DNA from: a virus
DNA: 30,749 bases
IMG/VR virus record: IMGVR_UViG_3300025133_000427
Span: 1-30,749 of that record
Direction: 5' to 3' (one strand)
The stretch's first letter is position 1; every line of letters starts with the position of its first letter. The translations under genes were made by a program, and so were the position numbers. Shown piece after piece: positions 3 through 18,330 of this stretch. The notes under the pieces were generated by a model, which was not told where the DNA came from, did no database searches, and saw only the letters and a program-made list of their open reading frames with translations.

Positions 3-3000
3 AAAATTAAGTTTAATACATTTGTAACTCCTATGACTACAGAGAGTACATTATATGACCTATCAGATGTTATAGAAAAGTACACTTTATCTCTAACTAA
101 TAGAGGGATACTTGGACCAGATGGTAAGATGTATTATCCTGTTACTCAGTATGACTATGTTACTAGACAGTCTACAGAGATGCAGAATAATGACTTATTC
201 TTTCATGAGCTAGAGGATGTATTTACTCAAAATTCAATGTATAGAAATTATTACATGGATGAAGAGTATGGTGAAGAAAGAAGGAATGACTTAAAAGTTA
301 TGACTTTCCTTAGTAGAAAATATCAAGGGAATGACTCTGGTGTATCCATAAGCGATATTAAATATATAGATGAATACTCTTCTAAGGTTGATATGATAGT
401 AATGGAAAAAACATTACCTTATTTAACATTAGCTGATAAATCTAGATCATATTTAATGAAAGGTTTACCCCACTATAATTTACCTAATGGTAAGGTTACT
501 GACCAAGTGGCTGATATATTTGCTGGATACATTGTAGATGAATTAAATACTATGAATAAAGCTTATGAAGCTATTTATGGTAAAGATAAGATAGACCCTA
601 AGAACTTAGTTGTTAACTACCATTATAAAATGGACAAGGGTGAAAAGAACTTTAAGAAAGGTAATGCCTTTACTTTACAGTCGTTTCCATCTTTATCTCC
701 TGGTACAGAAGCAGCTAAAGAATTAGGACTGTATAATGAAAGTAAAGGTGATAAACCTTTCTCTGTACATGAGACATTTATATCTGATGACGGTGAGAAC
801 TCAACAATTGAGGAAGGTACTAGAAATAAATTAAAACCTTATATTAAAGCTACTTTAAATGCTTATATTGATGCTGAAGCAGCAAAGATGGAAAGTACTT
901 TTGTAACTAAAGAAAAAGGTAAAGTTACTCATATTTCATTGAGTAAGGCTATTAGAGATAAATACCTAAAGGATGGAGACATTTCTAAAGGTATGAAGAA
1001 TATAGCAGCCAATTATGTAACTAATGGTATGATATCTAATATAGAGTATACTAAGTTATTTACTGGTGATGTTAGGTTCTATAAGACAGGTGTGGATTTC
1101 TTAAAAAGAGTTCCAGCAACTACTGCTACAGGAGATTCTCTTAGAATCACTGAAGGAGTTAATGAATACTTTAATATTGCAGTTGCTCCTAATTTTGATT
1201 TTCAATCAGACTTTTTATCTAATGATGAGCATATAGCTAACATTAAAAAGCTTACTAAGGACATTAAGAATCCTGATGAGAAAGCTGCAATGATAGCTTC
1301 TATTGAAGCATCAAGAAATGCTTATTCTAGAGTTAATAGAACTGATGCTCAAGGTTGGATAACAATGCCTAGATTTAAAGAAATAATGATTGGTTTAGGG
1401 TACTGGGAAGCTGGTATGGATGAAGCTTATGATAGAGTTATGACTCCTGGCAAAGCTAAAGCTGAGGATTATGATTTATTTTCTAAAAAAATGACTACTT
1501 TTCAACCTAAGAAAGGTATGCACTTTGAGTTATTTAAAGACCCTAATACTAATTTAATTAGACCTATATATTTAAAATATTCACAAGCTATATTATTTCC
1601 AGATTTTATTGAGAGTAATCCAACTCTTAAGAATATGGAAAAAGCTATGCGTGAAAATAACATCTCCGAGATGATTACTGGAGATGGTGTTAAAGTTGGG
1701 GCTGTAGAACCTACTGACATTCAGGCTGATAATATAGTATTTAATCCTATAAGACTTAGGAATAAGCATTGGAAATTACAACAAGATTTACCATCTAAAG
1801 ATAAAGACACTTTAGTTGGTTCTCAAATACAAGTTAACATTACTGCAGATTTAGATCCTGAAAAGGATTATAATGGTAAGAATGGTAGAGAGTTAGCTGA
1901 AGCTATAACTAATGTGTCTACTACATTATCGGATAGAGGTTTTGAAAAATTAGCTAAAGACTTAGGAATTGGTGAAGATGGAAGAATCAACGATACTGAG
2001 AAATTGTATGATAAGCTATATAATACCTTCAAAAAAGAAGGGGAGTCTAAATATTTATTAGATGCATTAAAGGCTAGAGTACCATTTGATTTAATACATA
2101 GCCATAGAGGTCAGATATATAGTAAGATAAATGGGATGTTTAAATCTGCAGCCACTACAGTTAAACAAGCTGGTGGTTCTGCTATTCAAATGTCAGATTT
2201 TGGATTTGATTCTGATTTAGCAGGTAAGAACTTTAAAACTCCTGCAGAATTAAATAAGTCTGAATTGTCTGGAATTACATGGTTAAAGAATGAAACAGAA
2301 TTAAGACCTCCTAGATACACTCAAGATCCTAACGGTGAGTATAGTACTAAACCTGGAGAAATATTATTACCTTATAATAAGTTAGCTTCATTGTTTGGTG
2401 ACAAGTGGGAAAAAGTCAAAAAGTTGTCTCCAGATAAAATAATGGAGCTTATTGATGAAGATGCTTTAAATGTTATTGGATATAGAATACCTAATCAAAA
2501 GTTAGCGTCTAATGATAGCTTGAAGATTGTGGGTATTTTACCTCCTCATGCTGGAAATACTATTGTAGCTTATGCTGAAATTACTGCAAAGACTGGTAGT
2601 GATTTTGATATTGATAAGATGTATTACATTCAACCACCTCTACATTTCAATAGAAAGACTGGTAAGGTTGAGGCTATTAAATTTTTAGATGACTCTAATT
2701 CTACTGTAGAAGAGAGGTATGAAAATTATGCTAGAGCTGAACGGAATAAAAAAGAAGCTATAAAGATATTATCTGATGAAGGTATTGACTTAAAAGAGAT
2801 TAAAAACTTAAATAAAGAGTTTTTAAATAGTAAGATAGCTAAGAATCAAGATAAGTTATTCTCATTATTAGACTTATCAGAAGCTGAGGATATTGCTGAT
2901 GAGATATTAGTTGAGGTTGGAGAGACAATTTCATTTGAGGAATTTTCAAATCTAGCTATAGAGGAGCAAAATACAACTAATGCTTTAAAGTCTAGAAGGG

Positions 3001-5174
3001 TTGATTTATATAAAGATGTATTAGAAAGTAATCATTCATTTGTTAGACTAATATCTTCAGTTGATGCTGAGTTCTTAGAAGAGCAAATTAAGTATATGTT
3101 ACCTAGTCCTAAATTAGGAGATTTAGAAATTTATCACCCTACTTTCCAAATGGACATTAGAAGAGAAAATTCTACATCTAAAGGTGGAGTTGGGCAATTA
3201 GCTAATCAGCAAACTGATAATGCTATTTCTCAATTTGGATTTAAAAAGATTAATGAGGGAGGAACTAGACTATCTTCTGATGGTATACTAGATTTATCAA
3301 ATCCTTTTATTAAAGAGTTTGAGGTTCTAGCTAAAGATAAAGATGGCAATCTTACAGGTAAGGTTGAAAAGACTTTAAATAATGCAGTATATTTAACTGA
3401 AGTTATTTCAGCTTATATGAATGCATTCGTAGATGCTGCTAAGGATAACTATATAGGTAGAGCCAACTTTAACTTTGCAACTAATAATGCAGCATTCTTA
3501 ATGATGAGAAGTGGTATTAGTTCTCAAAAAGTTACAGCTTTAATGTCTCAACCAGGTATTAAGAGATTTATAGAGCTTACTAATGAGAAAGAAGGTCAAG
3601 CTGTTAAGAGAAACTCTAAATCACCATTAGAATTAGTAATGGCTGAATATGACATAAAGAAAGTTAATAGCTCTTCTTCAATCAATGATTACTCTACTGA
3701 GAAGTTAATGAGTAACGCTAAGGCTGACTCAATGCCTGATGCTCAAGAGCAAATGGACTTATTAGATTTATTCTTATATACTAGGAATTTATCTAAAGTT
3801 TTAAGACAATCTGTACAAGCTTCTAAAGCTCCAGTTAAAGGTCCAGGAACCACATTAATGGAATCTTATGTTATGGTAGATAAGAGAAATAATGTTGGTA
3901 ATACCTACAATAATTTAGGGGAAAGAGTTTTGATCAATTGGGATAAAATGTTTGATGGTACTATGTTAGGTACCTACCATAAGAATGGTCCAGTTGCTGT
4001 AACTAAAGCTGTAGGTCCATTGTCAATGATGGGAAGTAACGGAATGTTAGATTCTGTTAGAAATACATATAAGAAAGTATATGGTACAGAGCTAGAAGAT
4101 GCTAAAAAGGCTAATAAGATATACAACCTTCAGTTTGCAGCTTTAATGGCTAATAGTGAGACATATAAAGTTACAAATGAAAAGTTAAACTCTTTAATGT
4201 ACGGTGAAAATTCTGTAGGTAGGAGAATGTATGAATTGAAAAATTCTGGAACTCATGATAATAACTCATTAGTTCAATCATTATCATTTGTTCCTGGCAC
4301 ATACGGAGCACCTGATTTCTTAAAGGTTAATAAACTTGGTGGTGTGGATGTAATTGATAATGAAGCTTTAACTAGCTATTGGTTAGATTTATTTCACAAA
4401 CCTTCTACTAGAGAGTTGGCTGAAGATTTAGTTAGATATTCTTTCTATACTTCAGGACTTGTCGGAGGTTCTAATACTATATTTGAATTAGTTGACTATA
4501 GAATACTATATGCTATGGGGATGACTGATTCAGAATATAACTCTATAAAGAGTCAAGATAAAGTTCCTTCTGAGTTAATGGATCAAGTATTAAAAAATAG
4601 TTGGGATGACACAGAAATAGTTCCAGTTGTAGGAGCTAAGGGTGCAATTAACCTCAATGATGACAAAAAGGATTATAGAAACCTTTTCTTTGGTGTTAAT
4701 AGAGTTAGTAGTCCTAATTTAATTGTAGGATATGATTCAGATTTTAATCCAGTATATAAACCTTATGTAACTAAGATTCGTAAAGAGAAAGTTCCTGGAG
4801 CATTTGATAGAGTTATTAAGATTAAGGAGTTATTTAAGTATCAAGGTAATAAGGAGGATGGTACTGGTGTGTATATCAGAGTTAATAAGTCTGGATATAG
4901 TAGTCCTAAAGGTAAATTATTTGAATTTTCAGATGAATCTATAATCTCTGGAAATAATGGTGCATTAAATTTGGAAAATTCAGAATTATTTAGTAGTTTT
5001 GTAGACCCTGTATATCCAGGAAATGTAGATAATAAGGTTTTAAGAATAGCTGAAGATATTTATGATCAAGAAGAGTCTGAAGCAATGGAAGCTATAGAAT
5101 TGGAAGAAGCTGAACTTGAGGCTGCCAAGAATGAAAATGAAGAATTAAAGAAACACTGTAAAGGTAAAAAATAA
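3..5174 (+). CDS. Virion RNA polymerase of crAss-like phage, catalytic protein (5'-truncated by window edge)
   Basis: Probable DNA-dependent RNA polymerase that is packaged in the virion and injected to transcribe early phage genes. Counting from the ATG at base 33, residues 857-861 read DFDID inside TGSDFDIDKMYY. This is the metal-binding signature of the crAss-like phage polymerase (phage phi14:2 gp66), related to the DxDGD motif of cellular RNAP beta-prime and eukaryotic RNA-dependent polymerases. A stretch near residues 570-610 with several lysines could be part of the other double-psi barrel, but that is inference. The C-terminal 30 residues are Glu/Lys rich and probably coiled coil. The frame stays open upstream of base 33 to the window edge with no stop, so the ATG is probably internal and the protein longer than 1713 residues; the single-chain relative is about 2180. 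The zincin giant protein starts 5 bases after the stop. Confidence 0.82.
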   Translation, partial: KIKFNTFVTPMTTESTLYDLSDVIEKYTLSLTNRGILGPDGKMYYPVTQYDYVTRQSTEMQNNDLFFHELEDVFTQNSMYRNYYMDEEYGEERRNDLKVMTFLSRKYQGNDSGVSISDIKYIDEYSSKVDMIVMEKTLPYLTLADKSRSYLMKGLPHYNLPNGKVTDQVADIFAGYIVDELNTMNKAYEAIYGKDKIDPKNLVVNYHYKMDKGEKNFKKGNAFTLQSFPSLSPGTEAAKELGLYNESKGDKPFSVHETFISDDGENSTIEEGTRNKLKPYIKATLNAYIDAEAAKMESTFVTKEKGKVTHISLSKAIRDKYLKDGDISKGMKNIAANYVTNGMISNIEYTKLFTGDVRFYKTGVDFLKRVPATTATGDSLRITEGVNEYFNIAVAPNFDFQSDFLSNDEHIANIKKLTKDIKNPDEKAAMIASIEASRNAYSRVNRTDAQGWITMPRFKEIMIGLGYWEAGMDEAYDRVMTPGKAKAEDYDLFSKKMTTFQPKKGMHFELFKDPNTNLIRPIYLKYSQAILFPDFIESNPTLKNMEKAMRENNISEMITGDGVKVGAVEPTDIQADNIVFNPIRLRNKHWKLQQDLPSKDKDTLVGSQIQVNITADLDPEKDYNGKNGRELAEAITNVSTTLSDRGFEKLAKDLGIGEDGRINDTEKLYDKLYNTFKKEGESKYLLDALKARVPFDLIHSHRGQIYSKINGMFKSAATTVKQAGGSAIQMSDFGFDSDLAGKNFKTPAELNKSELSGITWLKNETELRPPRYTQDPNGEYSTKPGEILLPYNKLASLFGDKWEKVKKLSPDKIMELIDEDALNVIGYRIPNQKLASNDSLKIVGILPPHAGNTIVAYAEITAKTGSDFDIDKMYYIQPPLHFNRKTGKVEAIKFLDDSNSTVEERYENYARAERNKKEAIKILSDEGIDLKEIKNLNKEFLNSKIAKNQDKLFSLLDLSEAEDIADEILVEVGETISFEEFSNLAIEEQNTTNALKSRRVDLYKDVLESNHSFVRLISSVDAEFLEEQIKYMLPSPKLGDLEIYHPTFQMDIRRENSTSKGGVGQLANQQTDNAISQFGFKKINEGGTRLSSDGILDLSNPFIKEFEVLAKDKDGNLTGKVEKTLNNAVYLTEVISAYMNAFVDAAKDNYIGRANFNFATNNAAFLMMRSGISSQKVTALMSQPGIKRFIELTNEKEGQAVKRNSKSPLELVMAEYDIKKVNSSSSINDYSTEKLMSNAKADSMPDAQEQMDLLDLFLYTRNLSKVLRQSVQASKAPVKGPGTTLMESYVMVDKRNNVGNTYNNLGERVLINWDKMFDGTMLGTYHKNGPVAVTKAVGPLSMMGSNGMLDSVRNTYKKVYGTELEDAKKANKIYNLQFAALMANSETYKVTNEKLNSLMYGENSVGRRMYELKNSGTHDNNSLVQSLSFVPGTYGAPDFLKVNKLGGVDVIDNEALTSYWLDLFHKPSTRELAEDLVRYSFYTSGLVGGSNTIFELVDYRILYAMGMTDSEYNSIKSQDKVPSELMDQVLKNSWDDTEIVPVVGAKGAINLNDDKKDYRNLFFGVNRVSSPNLIVGYDSDFNPVYKPYVTKIRKEKVPGAFDRVIKIKELFKYQGNKEDGTGVYIRVNKSGYSSPKGKLFEFSDESIISGNNGALNLENSELFSSFVDPVYPGNVDNKVLRIAEDIYDQEESEAMEAIELEEAELEAAKNENEELKKHCKGKK

Positions 5175-5179
5175 ATACT

Positions 5180-8100
5180 ATGAGTATCAAATGTCCAAAT
5201 ACAAACCTTCCTGAATGGCAACAACTAGAAGCAGCTCATCCAGAACTTGCTTACTATTATTGGGATAAGTATGACGGTAAAGTTCCAGTTGAGTTATTAG
5301 ATGATAGTGAAACTTTCTCTTATGGAGGTGATAGAAATTTACCTGTTAAAGAGTCTGATTTTAAGCCCGAATTAGAAACTAGAATGTTAGATTACATTTC
5401 TAAATTGGGCTATACGTCTAAAAATAAGTCTAGTAAGACTGAAGATAAACATCATATATTACACACTTATAGAAATTCTAAGTATAGAGCTGACCAAACT
5501 AAAGAAACTAGGTTAGAAACTACTAAGAAACTTTATAATGCTGCTGTTAAACGTAATGAAAGAGGTGCTATAGGAGACACTCTACCTTTAATTATAGAGA
5601 AGATAGGAACTACTGGAGAAGGTATTCCTAATTATACTGTTGAGGTTAATCCAGAATATTTAACTAAGAGATGGGAATTGGCTAAAGATGAAATGGAAGC
5701 TCAAGCTGAGTTTGATGAATCAATGGTTAAATCTCCTATTTATGCTAGTAGAAAAAACAGATTAGCTGACGCTAAGGGTGTAGATGAAGTATCCTCATTT
5801 GAGGAGAAGTTAAGTTTGATGAAAAAGTCATTTCCAGGTGTTGATATTATTTTTGATACCAATATGCAGGAGAATGGTAGATACTACCCAAATGGCATGT
5901 ATAATGAAGGTAAGCCTCAAATTGCAATTAATACAAACTTATTATCTAAAGATGTAGTAATTCATGAATTTGGTCATTTATTCTTAGACCTTTTGGGAGG
6001 TATGGACAATAGCTTCGTTAAAAGAGGTCGTGATTTATTAAAAGGTAGTAAATTAGAAAGAATAGTATTAGAAGCTTATGCTGATGAAGGTTTAACTCCA
6101 GAAGAAATGGATTTAGAAATACTTACTACAGCTATTGGTTATGAAGGTGCAGCTTTATATGAGCAAAAGAAGCACTCACCATTTAAAACATGGGTTAAAA
6201 TATTCTTGAATAAATTAAGACTTCAGTTAGGACTTAACGGGAATGTTGCTATGGAACTTTCTAGGAGAATGCTTAACAATGAAGTTAACATGGATAAGTT
6301 AACTGGAGAATTGTCATCAAGAGTAATGTTCTCTAAATCAGCTAATAGTGAAAAGCCTACTTCTGAGGAAGATTCTAAAATGGATGAAACTATTAAGAAG
6401 GTAATTAGTAGAGTTTCAGTACTTAAGAAAAAATATAAAGATTCTAACAATTCTGAATTTAAGGATCATATTACTGACCTATTAAAAGAATTAGAGGATA
6501 AGCGTGATGTAAAAGGTTTAATTAGATATGTTGATGAAGTTAACTTTCAAACATCTAAGATTAAATCAGCATTAGCTAAAATGAGAACTTCTGATGAAGA
6601 TATAGATGCTAAGAGATTGAAAGATATAGGTACCTTTATAGGTGCATTTGATTTAATTGAAGAAGTAGAATTACTATTAAATGATGAAATAGAAAAGTAT
6701 GAGAGAACAGGTGATACAGAAACTGTTAAACTTTTACTTAAGAAAAGAAATTTAGATAAGGCTATTGTCAATCTTAAAAATATTAATACCACCTATAAAG
6801 CATTGGAAATTAGAGCTTTAAAGCAAGTTATTGCTCCAATGTCTAATAGAGTTAAACACTCTTACGAGGTTCAATATGAAAGAGATTTCTATGCTTCTCA
6901 CGGAGGTTATAAAAATGCTAAATCTTCTCTAGGAAAAAGTCTAAAAGGGGCTAAGGAGGAATATATTAATGATAAGTTGGCTGAGAATGCTGAAAAGATT
7001 CAATCTGAGGAAGATAAGTATGTTGATAGAATATTAGAAGTTGCCCCAAAGGATATTGGACAAGCTACTTCTTGGGTTGTTGACCCTAAGAATATAGACG
7101 ATGCACTTATTCAATCTACTATTGAGGTATTAGATAAGGCTGATCATAAATCCAGAATGGACTTCTTAAATGAAAGAGATGAGGCTAGGGATATTTGGGA
7201 TGAGCTTATGGAAGCTAAAGGTACAAGTGACCAAAAGAAGCTTTATAAGGACATTATAGAGGTTATTGACGGAAAAGAGACTAACTATATGGTTGGTAAA
7301 TATAAGTCAACTTATAAGGACCGTGAGGCTGCTCAATATAAAGAGTGGAATCAACGTGAAGAAGCTGGTGAAATGATTACAGCTAAGGAGAAAATTATAT
7401 TTTACCAAAAGTTAAAAACTGAAGAGTTAAATCCTCAATGGAATAAGATTCAAAAAATGGATGATTCTAATCCAACTAAGAAGGCTTATTTATATTTAAC
7501 TGACCAATCTAGAAGAAAAGATGCTATAACTCCAGGTAGATATTCTTTAGGTATGAATATTAAGAATTTAAAACCTGAAGAGATAACTTATAAGTTACCA
7601 GCTATAGAAAAGACTGGATTAGAGAGAATTAAAGAGCAAGGATTATGGACTGCTGGAGCAGAAGGATTTAAAGATGCTTTTGTTAAAGATAGTGAAGATA
7701 CTGAGTTTGGTGAGCAGCCTTTAGAAGAAATTGACCCTAATCTTAAAGTTGTAATAGCTGATGAGAAAGGTAAGGAGAATCAAAAAGTACCTATTCATTA
7801 TAGAGGTAACTTAAAAAAGGCTTCTCAACAATCTTATGATTTAATTGGTATATCTTTAATGGATTATAATAATGTAGCTAACTATAAGGCTAAGTCTGAT
7901 GTTGCTCATATTGTAGAATTATTAAATGATAGAGCTGCTTCAAGAGAAGTTGTTAAGAAACAAGCTGGTAAATGGGTTGTTCAGATGCTTAATGGTGAAG
8001 ATTATGAGCCAATTAGAAGTAAAGGTATTAACTCAAATGTATATAAAACATTAAATTCAATTGTTCAAGATAGGTTATACGGTATATCTTCTATAGATCA

Positions 8101-12762: not shown

Positions 12763-12987
12763 TTATTTATTCTTGCCTATATTAGTACCTCCACCTTCAA
12801 ATTTTGAAGGATTTAAACTAGTAATTAAGGATTTACCTAGCTTATATTTAATTTTCGATAAAGTTCCTAAGTCCATATCTAAAGAATTTTCCACATCTCC
12901 ACGTTCAGGTACATAATTAGGTGATTTGCGGCTATCACTCATGCCGTTGTTCAAACATTCTACAAGTTGAACTAATGAATATCTCAT
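12763..12987 (-). CDS. Hypothetical protein, 74 residues, last gene of the E1/JAMM operon
   Basis: Family not recognised. It is basic and polar, with a C-terminus reading PSKFEGGGTNIGKNK, a Gly-Gly-Gly followed by a short basic tail. In a ubiquitin-like system such a tail could be a processing site, but the protein has no visible beta-grasp pattern and this stays speculative. One Cys (residue 11) is present. It starts 10 bases after the stop of the 271-residue gene and is followed by a terminator hairpin, so it closes the operon. The leader is all A/T apart from a single C-type interruption near the previous stop. Confidence 0.55.
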   Translation of the reverse strand: MRYSLVQLVECLNNGMSDSRKSPNYVPERGDVENSLDMDLGTLSKIKYKLGKSLITSLNPSKFEGGGTNIGKNK

Positions 12988-12997
12988 AATATTAAAT

Positions 12998-13813
12998 TTA
13001 AATATTTTCTACACTTGTTCCTGATACTAATCTAAATTCATTAGAAGCTTTAATTATATTTAATGCTTCAGAGGCTATAATTTCCATGTTTTTAGTATTT
13101 TCATCAACACTTCTAGCTTTGGGCATTTTAAACCTTGTAAATAATTCATCAAAGTTAGGCACATTTTCAAATTTAACCCCTAACTCCAACATTTGATATT
13201 TATAAATATTAAACTGATCTAAAAATTCACTATCAATTCCATTTATACAATCAAACTTATCATTTACAAATACTTTAATAGCGTCTGGATGTACAGGCTT
13301 ACCTAGCATCATACACTGTTTAACATATCTAACATGCTCTCTTTTAACACATTCTATATGTAATGGTTCATAGGATGTAGTATTAGAAGTTGGATTAGAT
13401 TCTACATAATTATTTACTACTATGGCTGATCCTGGAAGTTTTATAAAATGTTTACCAGTATGCATACTAATATTTATATAATTCTCTCTAATAGTAGTAA
13501 TATTGCTAAATGCATTATTTGATAATTTGTTTAAATTTACATCTCTGTTAAACCCTCCTACTGATAAGGGCTCTAATGGTTCAGACAATATTTCAAAACT
13601 TCTCTTGAAGTAATCTGTGTGAATTCTCACTCTACTTTGCGTATTACGGATATCACCTACTGCAGTATTTTTTATCAATGAGGCTACAGTTTGACCCTTA
13701 ATGTTAATTCTAAATCTAGGTACATATTCACTACCTAATCTACTCACTAGAGGTGGCTTATTGGAATATATTCGACCAGTATCTGTGTGAAATCTAAGAT
13801 GACTTTGGTTCAT
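12998..13813 (-). CDS. Unknown protein coupled to the ThiF/E1-like gene, 271 residues
   Basis: Family not recognised. It begins with an Arg/Ser/His-rich stretch, has several short predicted beta-strands in the first 150 residues (for example FRINIKGQTVASLI), then a Cys/His patch (HIECVKREHVRYVKQC) and an alpha-helical C-terminus. Its start overlaps the end of the E1-like gene by 20 bases, so translation is very probably coupled. A role as partner, substrate or ligase-like factor of the conjugation module would fit its place, but nothing in the sequence proves it. Confidence 0.6.
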   Translation of the reverse strand: MNQSHLRFHTDTGRIYSNKPPLVSRLGSEYVPRFRINIKGQTVASLIKNTAVGDIRNTQSRVRIHTDYFKRSFEILSEPLEPLSVGGFNRDVNLNKLSNNAFSNITTIRENYINISMHTGKHFIKLPGSAIVVNNYVESNPTSNTTSYEPLHIECVKREHVRYVKQCMMLGKPVHPDAIKVFVNDKFDCINGIDSEFLDQFNIYKYQMLELGVKFENVPNFDELFTRFKMPKARSVDENTKNMEIIASEALNIIKASNEFRLVSGTSVENI

Positions 13814-14576
13814 TTTCTTTAGTGTTAAACATCATTGTAGGGAACTCTAAAGATGTTCTAAACGGAACCTCTCTAACTTGTGCCTTATAATGAACATTAG
13901 TAATATAATTATTAAATATAGCTGTCATAAATCCAGCTATGGTCATACTTGAATGAGTTGTAGACTTGAATGAGCAAGCCACATCTGGGACATCTTTATC
14001 GTCCCATAAGTACTTCCTGTAATTGTCAATATCTTTCCTAGTGACTGCATAAATTTGCATTTCTTCAGCGGTCAATCTACCGTCAATAAATATTGCAGGC
14101 TTACCTTTCATATCCTCACTAGTAACAAATTCAACCCATTTTTCAAACATTAACTTTCTAGCAGCCATGTTGTCAAATGCTGAAAATACAAAATCATTAG
14201 AAAATGAATCTTCCTCATATTTACCCATAGATACGACATCACCATTAGCTGAGAATGCCATGCATTGATCAACCATTACGTCAGCCTTATTCTTACCTAT
14301 ATCTGAGGTACTATACATTTGACCAGCCATATTAACTTCGTCAATCATATCATAATCAAATAATTGAATTTTAGCCTCTTGTCTACTCAAACCTAAGCTT
14401 AACCATGACCCTATTGAACCTGCTCCACCTACAATAACCATTGTTCCAGGTTTATACCAAGGGGCATCAGAAAATCTAACAGTTCTATTGTTAATTGTTG
14501 CGTTATCCTCTACTGTTTCAGTAGAAGAAACATCAGAGACTTCCAAAGTCTCCGATGTAATTGTTGTTTCTTCCAT
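13794..14576 (-). CDS. ThiF/E1-like adenylating enzyme (ubiquitin-activating type)
   Basis: A 260-residue Rossmann-fold protein of the ThiF/MoeB/HesA/E1 superfamily, which adenylates the C-terminal glycine of a ubiquitin-like protein with ATP. After a disordered, acidic N-terminus comes MVIVGGAGSIGSWLSLGLS (46-64), the nucleotide-binding GxGxxG. FDYDMIDEVN (73-82) matches the DxDxVxxxN ATP/Mg motif, GKNKAD (94-99) matches the following GxxKA, and SAFDNMAARK (132-141) and IDGRL (164-168) match later core motifs. Cys201 in DVACSFKSTTHSS sits where many members have a reactive or structural Cys. Odd: the usual NxxRQ reads NMAGQ, so the conserved Arg is Gly85. There is no fused ubiquitin-fold domain. 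The gene follows the JAMM gene by 12 bases and overlaps the next gene by 20. Confidence 0.88.
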   Translation of the reverse strand: MEETTITSETLEVSDVSSTETVEDNATINNRTVRFSDAPWYKPGTMVIVGGAGSIGSWLSLGLSRQEAKIQLFDYDMIDEVNMAGQMYSTSDIGKNKADVMVDQCMAFSANGDVVSMGKYEEDSFSNDFVFSAFDNMAARKLMFEKWVEFVTSEDMKGKPAIFIDGRLTAEEMQIYAVTRKDIDNYRKYLWDDKDVPDVACSFKSTTHSSMTIAGFMTAIFNNYITNVHYKAQVREVPFRTSLEFPTMMFNTKENEPKSS

Positions 14577-14588
14577 TTTATTTTAATT

Positions 14589-16169
14589 TTAATGAATATT
14601 CATTGGAGATGCTACTGCAGTTCCTTGACACGTGGGGCATGAAGCATTTCCAAATCCAAAGTTGACAAAGCCAGTGCTATCACATTCAAAACATCCGACA
14701 TTCATTTCTTCAGTTTCTTCAAGTTCTTCACTTCTTACAGCTTCCTTGTTAATGCCTAATTCTTCAATATCCATCTCCAGCAATCTTTCCTCCTCCTCTA
14801 TAACGGTATTATCTAAAAATTCAACCATTGCTATAATAGGATATTTACTATTATGAGGTGGATAGTCAACTATATCTTTAATAGCATAACATATTAGCAT
14901 TATCTCCAGGCAATGTAAAGGATCATCATCAGTTCCGAAGTATTGTAATACATACTCTTCAAATCTTGAAGACATTTCATCCATTAGCTCATCTATTTGC
15001 TCGTCAGTCTTAGACGATAAAGTATTCATAAAATTATAGAATGGTCTTTTATCATTTAAATTTCCTGCAAACCACTGAACTAAGAATGGTGAAATATTTG
15101 TGAAAGCTGTGTTTACAGTAGTTGACAAACCCCTTTCCTGAAGCCTGGCTAAAGTCTCTCTGATGTCAGAGGTAGTATTAGACAAGCTTTGTCCATTTCT
15201 AACTACCTCTAGAGCTTTTTTAGCTCCTGTAGACTCCATCACTTTACTAACCTTATTGGCTCCTGGAGTAGTGTCAAAACCTAATTTACTCTGAACTGGT
15301 GTTCCAGCAGGTCTAATATTGCCAACTCCGTTGTTAGTATGACTAGTAGGTGTGTAACTTCTCACTGTTGCAGCCTTAGCCTTCTTAGCAGCTTCATTAG
15401 CTTTTAGGCATCTTTGAATTGCATCATACAGCTCTCCTGTAGACTCCCTAACTATTTCTAAATCTATAAAGAATATTACATCTTCAGTTGTAGTTTCCTC
15501 AGCTTTATTTTTAACATTCCTAATTTTATCTAGGAAGTTAAATGAATGCTTAACTTTCTTTTCAACTACATTTTCAATTTGTCCTTTCCAGCATAGTCTA
15601 GCTACATAGTTATTTTTATCTCCGTGATTAACTACTAGTGATAGATATACTTCATAAGCGGGAGTGTTTTCTTTTAATTCAGTTTCATCGGTACCTGAGA
15701 AATAAGCTCTCATGTTATGGTGAGTGTGAATTAACCCGCATCTTAGACCTTTCATTTGTAATTCCATTTGCTCAACTACTTGATCATTTGTTAATTCAAA
15801 TTCAGTAAGTGTTGAGGAGCCTATATCTCTCAATAAAAATTTCTCAGCGGTAATAGTTATTTCTTCCTCCTTTGATGTATCATATAACTCATGAATGCTA
15901 AATTTACTATCATTAAATTTATAAATTAATGTCCCACTCCATTCGTCATTACCTACAACGCTGTGGGCATAATTTATAGAGCTTAACAGTTCTTTACTTA
16001 AGAACAACTTAGGAACTCTTACTTGATTAGTTATATTCTGTAATCTCAATAATGGAGACTTAGGAGTACTTGTTGCCACGTTAACCTTAGTTTTATTCTT
16101 GTGTTTGTTCATACTCTGTTGTTTGTTTTGTTTGTGTTGTTTGTTCTTTTTCTTGTTGAATCTTCCCAT
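14589..16169 (-). CDS. JAMM/JAB metalloprotease with C-terminal DnaJ-type zinc ribbon
   Basis: A 526-residue protein from the ATG at 16169. It has the complete JAMM metalloprotease motif of deubiquitinase-like enzymes: Glu76 in NDEWSGTL, then HTHHNMRAYFSGTD with His148, His150, Ser158 and Asp161 in exact HxHx7SxxD spacing. Such enzymes cut after the terminal glycine of ubiquitin-like proteins. The centre (about 250-400) is low in complexity and helical. The C-terminus has CFECDSTG (Cys493, Cys496) and CPTCQG (Cys511, Cys514), a DnaJ-like zinc ribbon that could bind substrate. The frame is open up to 16250, but the first 18 codons from 16169 are Lys/Gln/Asn repeats lying in the 3' end of the upstream gene. 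The ATG at 16112 (507 residues) is an equally good start, since it follows a CA-rich leader and gives a 20-base overlap like the one at the E1 gene. Confidence 0.85.
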   Translation of the reverse strand: MGRFNKKKNKQHKQNKQQSMNKHKNKTKVNVATSTPKSPLLRLQNITNQVRVPKLFLSKELLSSINYAHSVVGNDEWSGTLIYKFNDSKFSIHELYDTSKEEEITITAEKFLLRDIGSSTLTEFELTNDQVVEQMELQMKGLRCGLIHTHHNMRAYFSGTDETELKENTPAYEVYLSLVVNHGDKNNYVARLCWKGQIENVVEKKVKHSFNFLDKIRNVKNKAEETTTEDVIFFIDLEIVRESTGELYDAIQRCLKANEAAKKAKAATVRSYTPTSHTNNGVGNIRPAGTPVQSKLGFDTTPGANKVSKVMESTGAKKALEVVRNGQSLSNTTSDIRETLARLQERGLSTTVNTAFTNISPFLVQWFAGNLNDKRPFYNFMNTLSSKTDEQIDELMDEMSSRFEEYVLQYFGTDDDPLHCLEIMLICYAIKDIVDYPPHNSKYPIIAMVEFLDNTVIEEEERLLEMDIEELGINKEAVRSEELEETEEMNVGCFECDSTGFVNFGFGNASCPTCQGTAVASPMNIH

Positions 16170-17808
16170 ATTCAGTTGATATTGATTTAAGCTGTGCGTA
16201 TCCGTATAGATAATTATTAATAATTTCACAAATTTTATCATATGACTCACGTAACATAACTTTAATAAACGATGGATCAGTTTTAAAATTATCTACCTCT
16301 TCTTGATTAACAGATTCGGATATAACTTTAATTTTATATTCTTTCCCGTTTATAACCATTAAAGGCGGTCTGTCAGATAATTCTGAATTTGCTCTACCTA
16401 CACTTATGGAATCACTATTATTAGTACTTTCAGGTATAGGGTGGTATACTTTATTTATAATATCCTTGTATACACAATGCTTATTAATTTCACTATTAGG
16501 TAAATTATCTATAAGAATTCTTGATACTGCGTCCTCAAAACTACCATCATTACCATCTACAATTAATGTTTCGTGATGATTACATTTTGTTAATTTTAGA
16601 GGTATCTTGGTAAGTTGTGGGATAAGCATCCTCCTTATTGAGGATTCTGATATAATATTAGAGCTATTTTCTCCTGATGATCTTGAAATTAAGTTAGACA
16701 TTTTATAGTATGGTCCACCATCTAAGCTTTCATGACTTAAATAATTAGGTAACATATACATTATAGATTCAAATAGTAGTGGCTTATGTTCAGACATCAG
16801 TTGAGATATCATCATTGATAAATCAGTACTACCTAGACAGAATTTACTCCATTGATCCCCACGGGTAGTTCTTTTCAAATGACTAAAATGATATCCATGA
16901 GCATACTCTAAGTTTGTTAAAGTGGATCTAGCTCCCAGCATTTCATTACACATTATACCATCTTTGTCAAAATCAAATCTAACATTCATATCTAATATGG
17001 TTCTAGACAATCCTCTTCTATTAGTGACATTTAATGATTCAAAATGTATAACTGCTGAATATTCAGCTTTAGGGTTACTATAACTATTGAAGTTAAAATC
17101 TAAATAATTTCCAAATAGTGCGTTAGGGTATATTGATTTTACAATTTTCTCAATTTTACTCCTAGTTGCAGCTCTTAATGGTGCTTTTTTAGCTTCCTCC
17201 CTTCTTAACCTAGCAGCTTCTTTTTTAGCAGCTTTAATTTCTGCCTCCCTAGCTACAATTTCCTCTTCAAATGCTTGAATTACTCCGTTTAATTCACTCT
17301 CTGTAGGAATGGTGAAACCTCTAATTGCTCCAGATGGAGAAATATAAGCATTCAGATTGTCATATGGACTAACTTTTTTAGCATCTAAACCTATGTCAAA
17401 TGTAATATTTTCGTAATCGGGTAAAAAATAATAGTCATGTCTAGATAGAGTTCTATTAACATGCTTATATTTAATTAGCCCTCCCTGCTGTATATATTTA
17501 TTTAACCTACCTTTATTTAGCATTTCATTTGAAGGTAGGGCATGAGTTACTTTCTGAACCTTATTATTAACACCTATTTTAGATATATTATTACCTCTCT
17601 CAAAGCTATTGAAACTTATATGGTACTTAAGTTTGGTTTTATGAATAACTGTTCCTGTAAGCCACTTATATTTAACTATATCCCCAATTTCAATATTTTC
17701 TCTATTGGGAATTTGGTAATTTCTATATCTTTCTGGAGTAGGGTCAGCTATAGATGTCAGTAGCCCTATAGATCTAGCTACATGTTCATTTAATTGATTA
17801 ATATTCAT
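16093..17808 (-). CDS. Candidate E2/RWD-like conjugating protein, multidomain, 571 residues
   Basis: First gene of the operon with the JAMM and E1 genes. Residues 40-70 look like a small SH3/Tudor-type barrel (EIGDIVKYKWLTGTVI). Residues about 178-212 are a charged coiled coil (Glu/Ala/Lys/Arg). In the middle, GYHFSHLKRTTRGDQWSKFC (305-324) followed by LGSTD resembles the His-containing strand and CLG turn of prokaryotic E2/RWD-like proteins, with Cys324 as candidate active residue. The last 30 residues are Gln/Thr/Glu repeats and overlap the JAMM gene. The E2 assignment rests on this short motif, on strand-rich surroundings (VIHFESL, FDFDKDG) and above all on neighbours; it is an inference. 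If wrong, this is an unknown partner protein. A hairpin ends 17 bases before the ATG. Confidence 0.55.
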   Translation of the reverse strand: MNINQLNEHVARSIGLLTSIADPTPERYRNYQIPNRENIEIGDIVKYKWLTGTVIHKTKLKYHISFNSFERGNNISKIGVNNKVQKVTHALPSNEMLNKGRLNKYIQQGGLIKYKHVNRTLSRHDYYFLPDYENITFDIGLDAKKVSPYDNLNAYISPSGAIRGFTIPTESELNGVIQAFEEEIVAREAEIKAAKKEAARLRREEAKKAPLRAATRSKIEKIVKSIYPNALFGNYLDFNFNSYSNPKAEYSAVIHFESLNVTNRRGLSRTILDMNVRFDFDKDGIMCNEMLGARSTLTNLEYAHGYHFSHLKRTTRGDQWSKFCLGSTDLSMMISQLMSEHKPLLFESIMYMLPNYLSHESLDGGPYYKMSNLISRSSGENSSNIISESSIRRMLIPQLTKIPLKLTKCNHHETLIVDGNDGSFEDAVSRILIDNLPNSEINKHCVYKDIINKVYHPIPESTNNSDSISVGRANSELSDRPPLMVINGKEYKIKVISESVNQEEVDNFKTDPSFIKVMLRESYDKICEIINNYLYGYAQLKSISTEYGKIQQEKEQTTQTKQTTEYEQTQE

Positions 17809-17824
17809 TGGATTAAAATTTAAA

Positions 17825-17854
17825 ATACCCCTATTAAATTAATAATAGGGGTAT
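17825..17854 (-). terminator. Hairpin between the Ubl/56-residue genes and the E2-like operon
   Basis: A perfect 11-bp inverted repeat (17825-17835 and 17844-17854) around an 8-base loop. It has four G-C pairs at its core and is followed on the minus strand by TTTTAAATTTTAA. It lies 22 bases after the stop of the 56-residue gene and ends 17 bases before the ATG of the 571-residue gene. It looks like an intrinsic terminator, but the short distance means read-through, attenuation or mRNA processing is also possible. Confidence 0.7.
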
Positions 17855-17875
17855 GGTTATAGTGTTTAATTATGC

Positions 17876-18046
17876 TTAGAATGGATGATCTTTATCAGAA
17901 GATTCTTTAATGTTAGCTAACTTACCATCCTTTGCTTTTGCCTTATCGTTGGCAATATTTTGGATAGTTGATACCGTATTGTTAAATTCCTCTTCTGTTT
18001 TTTCTATTTCTAAGCTTAATGGTAAAAATTCATAATCTTTAGCCAT
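17876..18046 (-). CDS. Small acidic/basic helical protein, 56 residues
   Basis: A short gene found by reading the gap between the Ubl-like gene and the hairpin. It runs from ATG at 18046 to TAA at 17876-17878. The protein starts MAKDYEFLPLSLEIEKTEEE, is highly charged and mostly helical in its middle (KTEEEFNNTVSTIQNIANDK), and ends DKDHPF. No Cys, membrane segment or known motif is seen. It begins 8 bases after the Ubl-like stop, so the two are co-transcribed. Codon use, A/T leader and close packing are like its neighbours, which supports a real gene. Confidence 0.65.
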   Translation of the reverse strand: MAKDYEFLPLSLEIEKTEEEFNNTVSTIQNIANDKAKAKDGKLANIKESSDKDHPF

Positions 18047-18054
18047 ATTTAATA

Positions 18055-18330
18055 TTATTGATTAATTAATCCTGATTTTGTCTTACGGGCAGATAAAAAT
18101 AATGTGAAATCATATGATTGAATATTGTCATCATCATAACCTAATCCAGTAGGTAATGCATCTCCACCATTGCCAAATTCATGTTGAGTTTCTCTAACTA
18201 CAGCCTTCATATCACCTTCATATAAACCTTTTTGTTTAACCAAGTGTAATAATTCTGACCAGCTAGTAATATCAGCTTCAATTGTTGTTAATCCTGTTCT
18301 TTTTGTTGTAAATACTTTAATTTTTGCCAT
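18055..18330 (-). CDS. Candidate beta-grasp ubiquitin-like (Ubl) modifier protein
   Basis: A 91-residue protein whose pattern fits a beta-grasp fold: strand KIKVFTTK (3-10), strand LTTIEADI, helix SWSELLHLVKQKG (23-35), strand MKAVVRET, an acidic loop, then strand YDFTLFLSARKTKSG near the end. The last strand ends in KTKSG followed by a four-residue tail LINQ. The fold resembles small modifier or sulfur-carrier proteins of the ThiS/MoaD/Ubl group and the small protein C of PRTRC cassettes, which also sit near a ThiF and a JAB gene. If it is the modifier, removal of LINQ by the JAMM protease would expose the C-terminal Gly. There is one Gly, not Gly-Gly. The assignment is from pattern and context, not from a clear signature. 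The gene has a long A-rich leader. Confidence 0.5.
   Translation of the reverse strand: MAKIKVFTTKRTGLTTIEADITSWSELLHLVKQKGLYEGDMKAVVRETQHEFGNGGDALPTGLGYDDDNIQSYDFTLFLSARKTKSGLINQ

Follow-up and report, generated by a model that had tools for sequence, protein, structure and literature searches.

A predicted ubiquitin-like conjugation cassette among the replication genes of crAss-like phages

Results

Organization of the locus

The record of the source virus (IMG/VR IMGVR_UViG_3300025133_000427, 30.7 kb), analysed over its whole length and referred to here as the window, carries a cassette of four adjacent genes, all on the minus strand. Read 5' to 3' on that strand, the region encodes a ubiquitin-like modifier (Ubl) of 91 aa (18055–18330), a 56-aa ORF with no family call (17876–18046), a probable E2-like conjugating enzyme of 571 aa (16093–17808), a JAMM/JAB metalloprotease of about 507 aa with a revised start (14589–16112), an E1/ThiF-type activating enzyme of 260 aa with candidate catalytic residue C201 (13794–14576), and a 271-aa protein (12998–13813). 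A further ORF of 74 aa (12763–12987) lies within the span of interest. Most of these genes abut or overlap, with intergenic gaps of −20 to 67 bases. An earlier sequence-only reading had described four minus-strand ORFs with their characteristic residues; all of them are present and the four-gene observation itself is confirmed.

A terminator-like hairpin (17825–17854, minus strand), recognized by a consensus scan only, separates the Ubl genes from the enzyme genes and could lead to the production of more modifier than enzyme. The promoter scan of the source sequence gave matches below shuffle expectation and was uninformative. The 271-aa protein has profile matches at the equivalent position in some closer viral loci (for example, L030, L058, L085, and L092), and no homologue was seen in most of the distant relatives when the viral loci were scanned with its profile.

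Upstream of the cassette on the minus strand are genes for a primase, a DnaB-like helicase, Sak4, and other helicases. The product of the gene at 5180–9376 matches a crAss-like RNA-polymerase gene, the best match being from Cellulophaga phage phi14:2, where the counterpart was detected by proteomics and carries a structural annotation. The crAss-like affiliation proposed for the source virus is thus borne out by the RNA-polymerase gene.

Conservation of the cassette

An E1 profile matched 187 relatives in IMG/VR, and the best 80 of the 187 loci were retrieved; these were picked by E1 alone, and profiles of the other three proteins were then run on the retrieved loci. The complete set, in the order Ubl-E2-JAMM-E1, was found in 76 of these best 80 loci, or in 68 of 72 once near-duplicates were merged. 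A contig end truncates the cassette in two of the four remaining loci (L036 and L077), one locus (L039) has no recognized E2, and one (L084) has neither a recognized Ubl nor a recognized E2. Because the order is kept in 76 of 80 loci fetched by E1 alone, the four-gene arrangement is not due to chance. The same order occurs in the named phages crAss001 (gp79–76), DAC15, cr111_1, cr126_1, cr128_1, cr85_1, frurule, bajarodcaudo virus 1, Dulem virus 41, and Flavobacterium phage Fpv3. The sequence-only reading had proposed a check for co-occurrence elsewhere among crAss-like genomes, and this co-occurrence is very strong. The cassette lies between the primase and uracil-DNA glycosylase (UDG) genes in most of the named phages; Fpv3 differs in that a gene annotated as UDG precedes the Ubl gene.

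E1, E2, Ubl, and JAMM were all missing from the four Crassvirales genomes searched for absence (phi14:2, cr116_1, cr55_1, and crAss002); crAss001 served as positive control for Ubl and JAMM, the E1 controls were separate, and none ran alongside E2. Like a single accessory unit, the cassette is retained or lost entire, which argues for an accessory module and not a core replication enzyme.

The interval between primase and UDG in phi14:2 (KC821624 21900–29900, ORFs 126–5770) holds genes of the GGACT, ATP-grasp, COOH-NH2 ligase, class II GATase, and Amidoligase_2 families and no cassette. Peptide or isopeptide bond formation is predicted for these families. This one example hints that the interval is a slot for protein-modifying systems.

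Among cellular genomes, a scan with exact peptide patterns, by which distant relatives could be missed, returned only two short MAG contigs (Clostridium and Spirochaetia), and these are probably phage. In a search of open-access papers, none on crAss-like phages with ubiquitin or ThiF addressed the cassette. Neither the crAss001 paper nor Yutin 2021 mentions its genes in the main text under the terms searched.

The modifier and its extension

The AlphaFold2 model of the Ubl, built with 60 relatives (pLDDT 78), has a beta-beta-alpha-beta-beta order of elements, corresponding to a beta-grasp fold, and a tail that becomes flexible near residue 82. The first 50 PDB matches listed by Foldseek are mostly DWNN, ubiquitin, SUMO, ISG15, and BfUbb of Bacteroides fragilis, with probability of about 1.00 and E-values of 2e-3 to 2e-2, none of which reaches 1e-3. 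A structure other than beta-grasp for the 91-residue protein had been named beforehand as a possible refutation of the ubiquitin-type reading; the predicted fold, with its ubiquitin, SUMO, and DWNN matches, does not refute it. The family is recognized by no Pfam model, and a PDB sequence search with the Ubl and E2 profiles gave no credible match.

The modifier had been described as ending in KTKSG. That motif is present, but the protein continues with four more residues, LINQ, whose removal would be needed. The glycine, G87, is invariant in 60 of 60 relatives, and K(T/V/I)KSG, a close variant, or an AG motif is found in 75 of the 77 modifiers from cassette loci. None of the 77 ends at the glycine, and at least one residue always follows it: one residue in six loci, three to five in three loci (the source virus included), and about 50–200 residues in the remainder. 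A conserved C-terminal glycine suitable for activation is present, and it would be exposed by processing.

In Steigviridae crAss-like phages the extension typically starts with (A)MSRxEAYxxIKxxGLQ. The cassette-less phage cr116_1 retains a free-standing 82-aa ORF (L117:700–948) after the primase region, which starts with MSRKELY and matches the extension profile with an E-value of 5.5e-15. In cr106_1 (L009:3740–4943), an HNH endonuclease gene lies exactly between modifier and extension, which are hence separate genes, the modifier having 92 aa and ending in KIKSGKF and the extension gene encoding 130 aa. On the strength of these two cases we regard the extension as an independent protein and the modifier with its extension as a fusion. 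The 56-aa ORF of the source virus was considered as a split-off extension and rejected, having no similarity to the extension profile.

Since the motif is kept in 75 of 77 modifiers, none ends at the glycine, and the extension stands alone in cr116_1, the tag is probably made as a precursor that is cut by the JAMM protein. Cleavage after SG would be the simplest reading. The conserved (K)SG-type motif that is never at the protein end, and its reading as a precursor site, are new here.

The E1 and JAMM enzymes

The 260-aa protein belongs to the ThiF superfamily (Pfam ThiF, E-value of 1e-12), and its profile matches include MccB, UBA5, and ubiquitin E1. It has the Rossmann GxGxxG motif and the Asp, Asn, Lys, and Mg-binding Asp expected of E1/ThiF enzymes, with D76, N82, K97, and D135 present in 84 of 84 relatives; the putative catalytic cysteine, C201, is present in 83 of 84. 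The Pfam match and the conserved residues bear out the original E1/ThiF assignment. One position departs from the ThiF pattern: the Arg of the NxxRQ motif is a Gly (G85) in all 84 phage E1 proteins, whereas PRTRC ThiF proteins keep it. This Arg contacts ATP in MoeB/E1, and its replacement could alter the ATP/adenylation chemistry.

The JAMM protein has the E, HxH, S, D zinc site (E103, H175, H177, S185, and D188, numbered from a GTG at 16250), which at least 80 of 83 relatives keep, and has weak profile matches (Prok-JAB, 9e-4; PRTRC_A, 5e-4). The residues reported previously are thus present and conserved, but the start given then, 16169, is revised: 77 of 83 relatives have their start at the position of the Met encoded by ATG 16112, and the protein therefore probably starts there (507 aa), its gene overlapping the E2 gene by 20 bases. 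The enzyme probably matures the modifier and strips it from targets. A CxxC...CxxC zinc-ribbon-like tail (CFEC...CPTC; 14589–14700) at the JAMM C-terminus is not shown by the other aligned named phages.

The E2-like protein

Mean column identity of the 571-aa family is only about 15% across 60 relatives, yet S309, H310, C324, G326, E360, S361, G364, and P366 are invariant (60 of 60). These residues form two motifs, SH...CxG around C324 and ES..G.P (E360, S361, G364, and P366), the first of which supplies the invariant candidate catalytic Cys and upstream His (or Asn) expected of an E2. The AlphaFold model has a confident core, with residues 250–360 mostly above pLDDT 85. It comprises a long helix (170–226), strands 250–262, 268–280, and 291–298, a loop bearing the SH motif and C324, and helices 329–339 and 343–357; this succession of helix, beta-meander, catalytic-Cys loop, and two helices fits the order of elements in an E2 domain.

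A missing E2/RWD fold in this protein was the second half of the refutation named beforehand, and here the picture is divided. The order of elements fits, but Foldseek with the full model returned no E2 and no PDB match, only crAss homologues in BFVD, and comparison with E2 profiles gave no significant match (Pfam; hhalign E-value of about 0.1). The comparison with PRTRC_B gave its best local alignment at the active-site Cys, although this match is weak, its score being reached by 2 of 100 column shuffles, and a match of weak significance to a jumbo-phage HPH..CLGS protein lands on the same Cys. The E2-like claim of the sequence-only reading is therefore sustained for the invariant Cys324 and the predicted topology, and not by any E2 match in Pfam or Foldseek. 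Might the protein instead be a substrate adaptor, an E3-like protein, or a thioester carrier of another fold, with E1 transferring the modifier more directly? The silence of Pfam and Foldseek, together with a long C-terminal region past the Cys domain that has its own predicted structure, would be explained by such a role. We judge it unlikely, however, as the invariant Cys sits in SH...CxG within an E2-like order of secondary structure, the position of the gene, flanked by Ubl and JAMM, is the one seen in PRTRC operons, and the best local match is on the PRTRC_B Cys at a level reached by 2 of 100 column shuffles. An E2 remains a reasonably probable identity for the 571-aa protein; it is the weakest of the four assignments, one that topology and cysteine motif fit and that database and fold searches do not confirm.

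Discussion

Relation to known systems

Bacterial operons with Ubl, JAB, E1, and E2 components were predicted by Iyer et al. 2006 (PMC1779556). In their classification the PRTRC operons are type 6d, with the Ubl as protein C, the E2-like protein as protein B, the JAB as protein A, and a ThiF protein, and type 6d includes an organism abbreviated Rmet (PMC1779556). Rmet is presumably Ralstonia/Cupriavidus metallidurans, whose pMOL28 operon has a PRTRC annotation and the gene order of the phage cassette. PRTRC plasmid operons share with the phage cassette the order Ubl, other, E2, JAB, E1. The two JAMM proteins have an HSHxxx-FFSGTD block (HSHxxxAFFSGTD) in common, PRTRC ThiF aligns to the phage E1 over 188 columns that include the CS..Q region, and some PRTRC Ubls likewise have residues past the final Gly.

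The differences are also clear. The PRTRC Ubl and E2 have no detectable profile homology to their phage counterparts (profile comparison of the Ubl with PRTRC_C gave no usable match), the phage JAMM does not match the N-terminal DUF2016 domain, and no PRTRC E/F proteins were detected with the phage cassette. PRTRC protein B has a conserved His downstream of the E2 Cys (PMC1779556), whereas the phage protein has its His upstream and no well-conserved His after C324. The phage cassette lies in a replication locus, and PRTRC operons on plasmids. NCBIfam models run against the source proteins gave 5e-4 for PRTRC_A and 6e-9 for PRTRC_ThiF, far below the curated cut-offs, and no match for PRTRC_B or PRTRC_C. 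The PRTRC parallel drawn earlier consequently stands for gene order, and membership is rejected by the family cut-offs and the missing downstream His. Among known systems, PRTRC operons come nearest in layout, and the most fitting description of the cassette is a distinct variant of prokaryotic ubiquitin-like conjugation that is carried by phages.

Phage and defence systems with related parts are also known. In phage tail genes a JAB is predicted to process a Ubl fused to a C-terminal domain, and in the Lambda/T1 tail-assembly pair (Ubl, TAPI; JAB-NlpC, TAPK) the two domains are joined at a conserved Gly, the proposed JAB cut (PMC1779556). Unlike the cassette, TAPI/TAPK lack E1 and E2 and are tail rather than replication genes. 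CBASS type II Cap2/Cap3 and Bil have E1 and JAMM chemistry in common with the cassette but are host-encoded and directed against phages. PADLOC showed weak similarity of the phage E1 to E1-E2 and BilD models and no match for the Ubl, E2-like, or JAMM proteins; a CBASS/Bil defence assignment was rejected, the similarity being in E1 only. Xanthomonas jumbo phage PhiXhv-15 (L014:4664–8543) encodes a ThiF protein related to the phage E1 family (E-value of 3e-24), an 892-aa protein with HPH..CLGS, and, upstream, a 141-aa protein ending in KASGG. No adjacent JAMM gene was recognized there and the sequences are very different, but it is possible that this is a second phage ubiquitin-like set.

Proposed mechanism and alternatives

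The earlier interpretation of the four genes as a ubiquitin-type system is supported. We think it quite likely that they form a self-contained, phage-encoded ubiquitin-like conjugation system with a precursor tag, JAMM, E1, and an E2-like protein, by which targets are tagged reversibly. The modifier would be made as a precursor and cut by the JAMM enzyme after the glycine of the conserved ...(K)SG motif. The piece released would be the four-residue tail in the source virus and, in most relatives, a second protein of about 50–200 residues joined to the modifier, an arrangement comparable to ubiquitin-ribosomal protein fusions. E1 would then adenylate the glycine and hold the modifier as a thioester on C201, from which it would pass to C324 of the E2-like protein and, in the infected cell, be attached to target proteins at lysines or other nucleophiles; the JAMM enzyme may be able to take it off again. 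Because the cassette sits among DNA replication genes, its targets most likely belong to the phage replication machinery or are host factors acting on it. This is the least certain step. The sequences gave no evidence for any target protein of the modifier. A point against conjugation is that the modifier ends in SG and not GG.

Could the Ubl, E1, and JAMM instead work like ThiS/MoaD-ThiF, as a sulfur-carrier pathway supplying a thiocarboxylate for a cofactor or for tRNA/DNA modification, with the JAMM enzyme freeing the carrier? The E1 is indeed of the ThiF superfamily, several records label it a thiamine biosynthesis protein, and phage tail Ubl/JAB pairs exist without E1 and E2 (PMC1779556). 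Yet the annotated neighbourhoods of the named phages showed no gene for a rhodanese or another sulfur-transfer protein, the cassette includes an invariant-Cys protein, the carrier has SG and not GG at its end, and the strict set of Ubl, E2, JAMM, and E1 corresponds to operons predicted to conjugate proteins, all of which makes a sulfur carrier decidedly improbable. Still harder to credit is a scheme without tagging of any target, in which the E1-like and JAMM proteins serve to mature or regulate the Ubl-extension protein and the extension does the work: the extension is at least as long as the Ubl in most relatives and persists in cr116_1 without the cassette, but several phages, the source virus among them, keep the enzymes despite tails of one to five residues, and E1 and the Cys protein would be superfluous for maturation alone.

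Returning to conjugation, a broader proposal is that a major crAss-like lineage runs its own full Ubl conjugation cycle, with precursor processing, during replication, and that the primase–UDG interval is an exchange slot for protein-modifying modules; we see the chances of this as evenly balanced.

Significance

To our knowledge, host anti-phage defence (CBASS and Bil) and predicted operons account for most of what is known of bacterial ubiquitin-like conjugation, and a complete phage-borne set is a reversal of the host-defence picture. The gene set suggests that the virus labels proteins within its bacterial host; if this is true, it would be a bacterial virus with its own reversible protein-tagging pathway. 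The carriers include crAss001 and DAC15, which have cultured Bacteroides hosts, so that the proposal is directly testable in existing phage-host pairs. The cassette suggests functions for gene families of abundant gut viruses now annotated as hypothetical or thiamine biosynthesis proteins, as well as the existence of a new modifier with a KSG end that depends on processing.
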